This document shows positions 31,432 to 33,589 of a stretch of 64,000 nt of DNA, piece by piece (positions within the stretch are counted from its first letter, which is position 1; the number at the start of each line of letters is the position of its first letter). The position numbers and the translations under genes were made by a program. Under the pieces are notes generated by a model. It was not told the DNA's origin. It did no database searches and worked only from the letters and a program-made list of their open reading frames with translations. The stretch is from Duganella zoogloeoides (GTDB lineage: Bacteria > Pseudomonadota > Gammaproteobacteria > Burkholderiales > Burkholderiaceae_D), in contig NZ_CP140152.1 of the NCBI RefSeq assembly GCF_034479515.1, positions 4,588,001-4,652,000 of the forward strand, written 5' to 3'.

Positions 31432-32661
31432 ATGACTTTACCGAAAGCGCTGGGCCATATCCGCGTGCTGGACCTGAGCCGCGTGCTGGCTGGCCCCTGG
31501 TGCTCGCAAAACCTGGCCGACCTGGGCGCCGACGTGATCAAGATCGAGCGCCCCGGCAACGGCGACGACACCCGCGCCTGGGGCCCGCCCTACGCCAAAG
31601 ATGCCGCCGGCAACGACACCACCGAAGCAGCGTATTACCTGGCCGCCAATCGCGGCAAGCGCTCGGTGACGATCGACATTGCCAGTCCCGAAGGCCAGGC
31701 CCTGCTGCGCGAACTGGTGCAGCACTGCGACGTAGTCCTGGAAAACTACAAGGTGGGCCAGCTGAAACGCTACGGCCTCGATTACGATTCGCTCAAGGCC
31801 ATCAAGCCCGATCTCGTCTACTGCTCGGTGACCGGTTTCGGCCAGGACGGCCCGTATGCGCACCGCGCCGGCTACGACTTTCTGATCCAGGGCATGGGCG
31901 GCCTGATGTCGGTCACCGGCGAACGCGACGACCTGCCCGGCGGCGGCCCGCAAAAGGCCGGCGTGGCGCTGACCGACCTGATGACGGGCATGTACGCCAC
32001 CATCGCCATCCTGGCGGCACTGACCCACCGCGACCGCAGCGGCGCAGGCCAGTACATCGACATGGCGCTGCTCGACGTGCAGGTGGCCATGCTGGCCAAT
32101 ATGGGCAGCAACTACCTCAACAGCGGCAAGCCGCCCAAGCGCTGGGGCAATGCCCATCCGAACATCGTGCCGTACCAGACCTTCGCGTGTGCCGACGGCT
32201 ACATCATCGTCGCCACCGGCAACGATGGCCAGTACCAGAAATTCGTGGAGGTGGGCGGCCGCGCCGACCTGGCCTTCCACGAGCGCTACGCCACCAATCC
32301 GCTGCGCGTGAAACACCGCGAAGAACTGGTGCCGCTGCTGGCCGGGATGGTGTTGCGCCAGACCCGCGACTTCTGGATCGAGCAACTGGAGGCAGTAGGC
32401 GTACCGTGCGGCCCGATCAACAACCTCGACGACGTGTACAGCAACCCGCAAGTGCTGGCGCGCGGCATCGTCACCGAAGTGCCGCACCCCACCGCCGGCA
32501 CCGTCAAACTGGTACGCAACCCGATGCGCCTGTCGGCCTCGCCGGCGGACAATGCCGTCGCTCCGCCATTGCTGGGCCAGCACACCGACGACATCGTGCG
32601 CGATTTACTGGGCCATAGCGACGACGAGATTGCCGCGCTGCGGGCCAAGGGAGTGCTGTGA
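31432..32661 (+). CDS. CaiB/BaiF-type (class III) CoA-transferase
   Basis: 409 residues, normal length. The N-terminal LDLSRVLAGPWCSQNLADLG, the block RGKRSVTIDI, the probable catalytic Asp in GVALTDLMTGMYA, and the segment GAGQYIDMALLD mark class III CoA-transferases. These move CoA between carboxylic acids such as succinyl- and glutaryl-CoA or formyl- and oxalyl-CoA. No decarboxylase or dehydrogenase partner is adjacent, so the acid is unknown. Its stop is eight bases from the end of the convergent hicAB locus. Confidence 0.88.
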   Translation: MTLPKALGHIRVLDLSRVLAGPWCSQNLADLGADVIKIERPGNGDDTRAWGPPYAKDAAGNDTTEAAYYLAANRGKRSVTIDIASPEGQALLRELVQHCDVVLENYKVGQLKRYGLDYDSLKAIKPDLVYCSVTGFGQDGPYAHRAGYDFLIQGMGGLMSVTGERDDLPGGGPQKAGVALTDLMTGMYATIAILAALTHRDRSGAGQYIDMALLDVQVAMLANMGSNYLNSGKPPKRWGNAHPNIVPYQTFACADGYIIVATGNDGQYQKFVEVGGRADLAFHERYATNPLRVKHREELVPLLAGMVLRQTRDFWIEQLEAVGVPCGPINNLDDVYSNPQVLARGIVTEVPHPTAGTVKLVRNPMRLSASPADNAVAPPLLGQHTDDIVRDLLGHSDDEIAALRAKGVL

Positions 32662-32669
32662 GCGACGGC

Positions 32670-32963
32670 TCAAGCCTGGAACGCCCCCAACCCCTGCCGC
32701 CTCAGCGCAGCATTCAACGACCGGACCCGCTCGGCCAGTTCCGCTGGCAAGGCAACCAGCCGCTGGCCGAGTTGGGGACGTGAAGGCGCGGGCACTTGCC
32801 GGTGGTCTTCGAAATAAAAATCGAGTGCGGTGACCAGCGCGTCCTCGGCCATGCAGATGGCTTCGGCCTCGGTATCGCCCTGGGTGATCGCCTCCGGGAT
32901 ATCGGGAAAAGTAACAACGTAACCGCCCGAGGGATCGGGGGAAAAGACAGCAGGATATTGCAT
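32670..32963 (-). CDS. hicB: HicB-like antitoxin from an internal start
   Basis: 97 residues in the same frame as the fusion, starting at the ATG at 32963. AAGGAGG stands five bases upstream, one of the strongest ribosome binding sites in the window, so free HicB is probably made in excess. The partial RNase-H-like HicB fold runs to about residue 80 (VTFPDIPEAITQGDTEAEAI, ALDFYFEDHRQVP). HicB proteins of this type normally continue to ~130-140 residues with a helix-turn-helix or ribbon-helix-helix domain. Here the sequence ends with RRQGLGAFQA at the convergent CoA-transferase gene. Autorepression by HicB may therefore be lost. Confidence 0.72.
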   Translation of the reverse strand: MQYPAVFSPDPSGGYVVTFPDIPEAITQGDTEAEAICMAEDALVTALDFYFEDHRQVPAPSRPQLGQRLVALPAELAERVRSLNAALRRQGLGAFQA

Positions 32964-33161
32964 GGCAACCTCCTTGGTGGAACATTGACTGAGCTTCAGT
33001 TTTTTCTTGACCGCGTCGACCAGTGCCTGCTTGAGTTCTTTGGACGGATGGCGCGGCAGTATGGTTTGTTCGCCGTTGGCGTATAGCTTCATGTGTTTCG
33101 AGCCTTGCCTGACTTGCACGCCGCGCTGTATCAGCCAGCGCAGGAATTCGCTTTGCTTCAT
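32670..33161 (-). CDS. hicA: HicA-HicB toxin-antitoxin fusion reading frame
   Basis: 163 residues with no stop between the two parts. Residues 1-59 are a HicA mRNA-interferase toxin, a double-stranded-RNA-binding-like fold with the catalytic-type histidine in GSKHMKLY (His23) and LPRHPSKEL. Residues 60-66 (CSTKEVA) are the bridge, encoded by the HicB ribosome binding site. From Met67 follows a HicB antitoxin domain (MQYPAVFSPDPSGGYVVTFP). In most hicAB loci HicA ends near residue 60. Here the frame continues into HicB, so ribosomes starting at 33161 (GGAGAG upstream) should make a joined protein. The HicB part is only 97 residues and lacks the usual C-terminal DNA-binding domain. A sequencing or assembly error removing one stop cannot be excluded. 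Confidence 0.75.
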   Translation of the reverse strand: MKQSEFLRWLIQRGVQVRQGSKHMKLYANGEQTILPRHPSKELKQALVDAVKKKLKLSQCSTKEVAMQYPAVFSPDPSGGYVVTFPDIPEAITQGDTEAEAICMAEDALVTALDFYFEDHRQVPAPSRPQLGQRLVALPAELAERVRSLNAALRRQGLGAFQA

Positions 33162-33238
33162 GATCTCTCCGAATATAGTCGGTTTTTCTCGTCCGCTCAA
33201 GCAAGCAGAGCGGTCCCTGGACTGGGGCGTCCAGCCGA

Positions 33239-33589
33239 CTATTGCAAATCCCGTTTCAGTTCCTGGATCTGGCTGGCCATATGACTGACCGCGCCGCGGA
33301 TCTGGGCCGACAGTTGCGGGATGTTGGTGCACACGCGGCGGGCGCGTTCGGCGGAGGCGGTCATGTCGGTGACCAGCTTGCGGATGCGGGCCTGGTCGCC
33401 CGATTGCAGTACTTCGCGCGCGGTGTCGCCCAGGCGGTCCACGCGCTGGATGCTGTCGCGCAGTTCGCTGGGCAGGTGTTGTTCGGCCGAACTGGCCTCG
33501 GACGCCTGGCCGATCGCTTGTTCGACCAGGTGGAAACGGCGTTGAATATTGTCGCTGCGATCGCTGGTACGGTCGTTGGTGGGCTGCAT
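33239..33589 (-). CDS. Small helical protein of unknown function (116 aa)
   Basis: The ATG at 33589 has a perfect GGAGGTGA site upstream, so translation is well supported. The product is charged and almost entirely helical with heptad-like spacing (LVEQAIGQASEAS, IQRVDRLGDTAREVLQ, MASQIQELKRDL), suggesting a coiled coil, and has one cysteine. It has no signal peptide and I recognise no family. It lies 77 bases upstream of hicAB on the same strand and could be co-transcribed with it. Confidence 0.7.
   Translation of the reverse strand: MQPTNDRTSDRSDNIQRRFHLVEQAIGQASEASSAEQHLPSELRDSIQRVDRLGDTAREVLQSGDQARIRKLVTDMTASAERARRVCTNIPQLSAQIRGAVSHMASQIQELKRDLQ

Follow-up and report, generated by a model that had tools for sequence, protein, structure and literature searches.

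Described HicAB Systems

In the available sections of the classification by Gerdes 2024 (PMC10865869), class 1 comprises tightly linked but separate genes in the order hicA-hicB, with HicB proteins of 67–97 residues that have no DNA-binding domain. In class 11, HicA is located N-terminal to HicB in a single gene and the antitoxin keeps a C-terminal helix-turn-helix (HTH) or ribbon-helix-helix (RHH), and in the fused HicBA proteins of class 12 the order is B-A. How operons with a DNA-binding-free HicB are controlled is left open in these sections. HicAB from E. coli K-12 (6hpb) is encoded by two genes; its HicB carries an HTH, and its promoter is regulated through an operator. A HicA-HicB complex from Y. 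pestis was solved without the C-terminal domain of HicB, and the HicA histidine is covered by HicB in the complex (PMC11594946, available part). Toxin and antitoxin also share one chain in CapRel, where the toxin pyrophosphorylates tRNA and the antitoxin domain senses a phage capsid protein, according to the available sections of PMC10865869.

The locus described here lies in a window of 64,000 nucleotides (the whole stretch of DNA that was analysed) from Duganella zoogloeoides. With class 1, as far as these sections define it, it shares the gene order and a small HicB of 97 residues without a DNA-binding domain, but it consists of one frame instead of two genes, although an internal start could free HicB. 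With class 11 it shares a HicA N-terminal to HicB in one gene, whereas neither an HTH nor an RHH is present; contrary to class 12, its order is A-B. Both domains are ~45–50% identical to those of E. coli K-12 HicAB, the HicA His included. Like CapRel, the locus places toxin and antitoxin in one chain, but it could add free antitoxin, and a trigger is known for CapRel only. HicA joined in A-B order to a tail-less HicB is absent from the 14 classes given in the figure legend of PMC10865869. Each part is already known, and what appears to be new at the sequence level is the combination of an A-B fusion with a DNA-binding-free HicB.

The Fused Reading Frame and Its Domains

HicA, a bridge, and HicB are encoded in a single open frame of 163 amino acids on the minus strand (33161 to 32670), which runs from an ATG at 33161–33159 to a TGA at 32672–32670; the plus-strand frame over the same interval is interrupted by stops. 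The HicA toxin domain occupies residues 1–58 (32988–33161), and the bridge region spans codons 58–66 (S Q C S T K E V A; 32964–32990), where relatives mostly stop at codon 58 or 59. The bridge between the domains proper consists of eight codons, Q-C-S-T-K-E-V-A (32987–32964), followed by the HicB ATG at 32963 and the HicB antitoxin domain, with 97 amino acids and no DNA-binding domain (residues 67–163; 32670–32963). A ribosome-binding site for free HicB, AAGGAGG (32969–32975, also on the minus strand), is located 5 nt ahead of this ATG and is read in frame as the codons K, E, and V, so that translation of free HicB can still begin at a predicted internal start, served by this strong site within the bridge. 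These features match what the earlier note had described, without naming a strand: a one-frame fusion with a strong internal HicB start, bordering a convergent gene and yielding products of ~18 kDa and ~10.5 kDa. The computed masses are 18.1 kDa for the fusion and 10.5 kDa for HicB alone, and 8 bases separate HicB from the end of a CoA-transferase-like gene in convergent orientation.

Residues 1–58 match the E. coli HicA structure 6hpb_A with an E value of 2.3e-13, and Foldseek aligns the HicA domain with E. coli HicA at a TMt of 0.92 and an rmsd of 0.9; residues 67–155 match E. coli HicB in a comparison with solved structures. The HicB part passes the cut-off of PF15919 (HicB_lk_antitox, 36.6 bits, cut-off 27), the HicA part falls 0.8 bits short of that of PF07927 (HicA_toxin, 26.2 bits, cut-off 27), and the NCBIfam search assigned no family. 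His23 aligns with the active-site His of HicA and is found in 90% or more of 47 alignment rows, and the partial RNase H core of HicB is present. In the AlphaFold2 model of the fused chain (mean pLDDT 81, pTM 0.55), both E. coli chains were matched; confidence falls below 50 at residues 60–63 of the bridge and is also low at the last residues, and the pTM of 0.55 leaves the docking between the domains unsettled. By these matches, the two domains are more than a product of chance. Compared with locus L009, pN and pS are 0.14 and 0.94 for hicA and 0.24 and 0.74 for hicB, a strong constraint, mostly older than the fusion, that gives no sign of decay and counts against a disarmed toxin.

The Tail-Less HicB Antitoxin

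The DNA-binding tail that the earlier note had reported as missing is indeed absent: HicB ends after 97 amino acids, and an inspection by eye of ~180 bases downstream, in three frames, revealed no HTH remnant. Eight other close HicB proteins among the matches listed (P0002–P0007, P0009, and P0010) have 97–99 residues, and when 79 HicB cores are placed in a tree, the nine form one clade with a support of 100/99, although this tree is built on few columns and has a bootstrap that had not settled. Members of this clade are 66–96% identical to the D. zoogloeoides HicB, diverse in sequence and constant in length, and the tail-less HicB is accordingly old and conserved. All 18 short HicB proteins in the tree need seven changes, and tails have therefore probably been lost several times. 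A recent loss of the tail in this genome by a nonsense mutation or a frameshift was considered and ruled out by the lack of an HTH remnant in three frames, together with the clade of similar length.

The HicA proteins P0122, P0123, and P0125 are probably the same-contig partners of the tail-less P0004, P0006, and P0005, respectively, judging by their sequences and by longest contigs of equal length within each pair (1569 for P0122 and P0004). Since the tail-less clade is conserved and these three members apparently have a separate or out-of-frame HicA, the loss of the tail would have preceded the fusion. The proposal that fusion and tail loss formed a single switch finds no support, given that the tail-less HicB belongs to a conserved clade and the fusion is seen in one genome only. 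A separate Duganella HicB (L010, 1501–1794) has a premature stop with an HTH-like stretch still in frame beyond it, and represents a recent truncation, unlike the D. zoogloeoides protein.

Tethering as a Probable Means of Disarming HicA

The likeliest reading, to which somewhat better than an even chance is given, is that the loss of the hicA stop tethers HicA and so disarms it, while HicB is still made. A compact hicAB cassette of the tail-less type is located between two convergent genes of the Duganella chromosome, and the hicA stop codon would have been lost in this genome, joining the two proteins because the short spacer is in phase. HicA would then be made only tethered to HicB, and in known complexes the HicB core covers the active site of the toxin; free HicB would also be made from its own ribosome site (AAGGAGG-ATG) within the bridge. 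The expected outcome is a pair tethered at 1:1, an excess of antitoxin, and no autorepression. The fused toxin is probably inactivated permanently, because HicB covers the HicA histidine and the solved Y. pestis complex lacks the C-terminal domain of HicB; we infer that HicB neutralises HicA in cis, that the internal start is used, and that the toxin is not released.

A working single-chain toxin-antitoxin, in which HicA is held by the tethered HicB until a trigger frees it, either a phage protein, on the model of CapRel, or a bridge-cutting protease, appears unlikely. Such a role has been proposed for fused HicAB by analogy with CapRel in the available sections of PMC10865869, and both domains look intact in the sequence and in the model. 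However, a single genome shows the fusion, the cassette is a lone insertion among genes that read as ordinary ones for metabolism and transport, the HicB made from the internal start would go on inhibiting the toxin, and no sign of cleavage was found. The release of the toxin by proteolysis at the bridge, put forward in the earlier note, finds no support either, as no test run pointed to bridge cleavage. Still more doubtful is a functional one-gene system of a fifteenth kind, where HicA would be tethered to a DNA-binding-free HicB, a second start would add free antitoxin, and regulation would proceed through translation only and a domain-separating trigger, in a lineage already devoid of tail and operator.

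Distribution of the Fusion Among Relatives

In total, 45 distinct loci with both genes were compared, after 15 without a hicA hit and 10 duplicates had been dropped. A stop within or right after hicA is present in 44 of the 44 other loci. Three further places with ambiguous tables were then fetched and have stops too (a fourth was L003 again). Among the 45 loci, an altered hicA end occurs in L019, with 75 codons. In L033, hicA is cut to 18 codons and the downstream hicB is intact, a state that resembles an orphan antitoxin.

A base-calling error or a strain-level mutation, in an isolate or species that normally has a stop between the genes, would agree with the stops at all of these places, but the genome is a single closed contig (a 6.32-Mb chromosome, completeness 100) and the related HicA P0122 also lacks the usual stop, though out of phase, which makes this explanation quite improbable.

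Six of the ten closest HicA proteins end at 57–58 amino acids (P0123–P0126, P0129, and P0130); as for the other four, P0131 has an extra N-terminus, and P0127, P0128, and P0122 have 52, 54, and 85 residues. Reading of the P0122 sequence indicates that it continues out of phase into hicB for ~15 codons, its probable partner being P0004. In four tail-less relatives (L003, L007, L031, and L037), the hicA-hicB spacers measure 9–21 nt and are in phase with hicB, so that one lost stop could fuse the two genes. In the 39 loci with a HicB tail, the spacer is in phase in 14 and measures at least 38 nt in 37.

Ten HicA-HicB chains were found among the best 120 of 5473 profile matches, all ten keeping the HTH region by sequence, and no second HTH-less chain occurs among these 120. 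P0238 is devoid of most of HicA and P0008 of its first helix, and the end of HicA is disturbed in P0235, P0247, and P0277; some of these chains look like frameshifts and not like a stop loss. HicA and HicB thus become joined sporadically. The closest HicB among the matches listed, P0002 from Duganella sp. FT27W, has no separate NCBI-source HicA nearby (all 113 matches) and no fused protein (best 120 of 676), and it could share the fusion unseen, if annotated from the internal start.

Searches with the fused protein in genome sets that overlap gave matches in 65 of 392 genomes of the family and 23 of 74 of the genus at 1e-8, in 6 of 40, 2 of 62, and 2 of 17 genomes of three other genera at 1e-20, and in 3 of 399 genomes of the order, host genome included, at 1e-32. 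No listed match besides the host exceeds 69% identity to the fused protein, none of the fetched loci fell in the clade of 97–99-residue HicB proteins, and the plasmid search returned partial matches to the HicB region only, in four records. From these comparisons, the fusion looks private to one genome and derived. The stops found between the two parts in relatives, which the earlier note had regarded as speaking against the fusion, count against its conservation and not against its presence in this genome.

Operator and Promoter

A 16-base motif was fitted to the 75 bases before hicA in the 39 loci with a HicB tail. The motif, with the consensus TAAACAATTTTGTTTA, is found in 32 of them, some of which are near-copies of one another (leave-one-out, shuffle p at most 0.017), and a second palindrome, ACAACA..TGTTGT, recognised by eye after the fit, is present in six of the remaining seven; L002 has neither, and 38 of the 39 hold one or the other. 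Four of the five tail-less loci have no good site, with negative scores and shuffle p values of 0.43 for D. zoogloeoides (best site −8.5 at the hicA promoter), 0.20 for L003, 0.04 for L031, and 0.21 for L037. The first motif is present in L007, so that a palindrome occurs in one of the five. Fisher's test of tail against operator gives p 1.8e-4 with both palindromes and 0.010 with the fitted motif only, kinship being ignored; L100, where HicB is cut by the contig end and the motif is present, was left out of the count. A generic palindrome test was discarded as a discriminator: it separated nothing, with 13 of 39 tailed loci at a shuffle p of 0.1 or less, and the motif model alone did. The best free-form palindrome at the D. 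zoogloeoides hicA promoter has a shuffle p of 0.28.

Because the palindromic operator of the relatives was not found in this promoter, a loss of autorepression is plausible; the earlier note had deduced such a loss, and the missing tail together with the missing usual operator argues in its favour. Two 6-bp inverted repeats are located upstream of hicA, and given these, another regulator or operator may exist.

One consensus match to a promoter, TTGAGC-17-TATATT (33172–33200, minus strand), was detected, where shuffled sequences gave 0.3 on average. It ends 10 nt before the hicA ATG, whereas the best promoter-like site ends 25–35 nt before hicA in 31 of the 39 tailed loci. The hicA ribosome site, GGAGAG, is located at 33170–33165, and transcription from the predicted promoter would be expected to start within or just past it. 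In E. coli, the transcript from the second hicAB promoter, near the toxin ribosome site, gives HicB and not HicA (PMC5535158 and PMC10865869, available parts). With a promoter-like site so close to hicA, the mRNA may lack the hicA ribosome site, favouring HicB. A fused frame that is hardly translated, with an mRNA starting inside the hicA ribosome site and yielding mostly HicB as an orphan antitoxin, would accord with this spacing and with the E. coli case, but the promoter is a consensus match only and the fused protein, searched against its own genome at E 0.001, matched itself alone, with no second HicA or HicB and hence nothing of its kind to neutralise, so that this explanation is held to be about as doubtful as a base-calling error or strain-level mutation.

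Judging by this locus and its relatives, loss of the HicB tail tends to be accompanied by loss of the operator. With a short in-phase spacer, a single mutation would then be enough for the fusion. Two-gene toxin-antitoxins could in this simple way become one-gene ones, and such a locus would naturally show whether the tether by itself suffices to disarm HicA. The correlated loss of tail and operator is, in our view, a more useful lead than the fusion, which rests on a single genome.

Insertion Site and Spacer Structures

The cassette is flanked by the convergent CoA-transferase-like gene (31432–32661), downstream of hicB, and by a gene for a 116-residue protein (33239–33589), upstream of hicA. 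Further out are an MFS-like transporter, a LysR-like regulator, a glycerophosphodiester-phosphodiesterase-like protein, and AlaRS, all of these names resting on a reading of the translations and not on a family search. In G120 (locus L054), a near relative with flanks of 87–93% DNA identity, only six bases separate the stop codons of the two flanking genes. In D. zoogloeoides, the distance is 577 bases, almost entirely hicAB cassette (32662–33233, without counterpart at the same spot in G120). Genome G040 has different, repeat-like DNA at the insertion spot, and D. aceris holds a different hicAB, made up of two separate genes, which closely follows a relative of the gene for the 116-residue protein, with ~3 kb extra before the CoA-transferase gene. 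The hicAB of D. aceris was rejected as a direct ortholog, since its HicB sits in another tree group. The spot between the gene for the 116-residue protein and the CoA-transferase-like gene (32662–33238) is, judging by these comparisons, a place where cassettes come and go. Its content varies among related Duganella (L031, L054, and L055), from a gap of six bases to repeat-like DNA or other hicAB cassettes.

Of 38 tailed loci, 16 have a spacer stem of at least 5 pairs, as does one of six short ones (L100, cut by the contig end), a distribution too uneven to use. Seven of the 38 tailed operons (L011, L012, L087, L088, L096, L098, and L099) carry a GC-rich hairpin of the GCCCC-gaaa-GGGGC type after the hicA stop.
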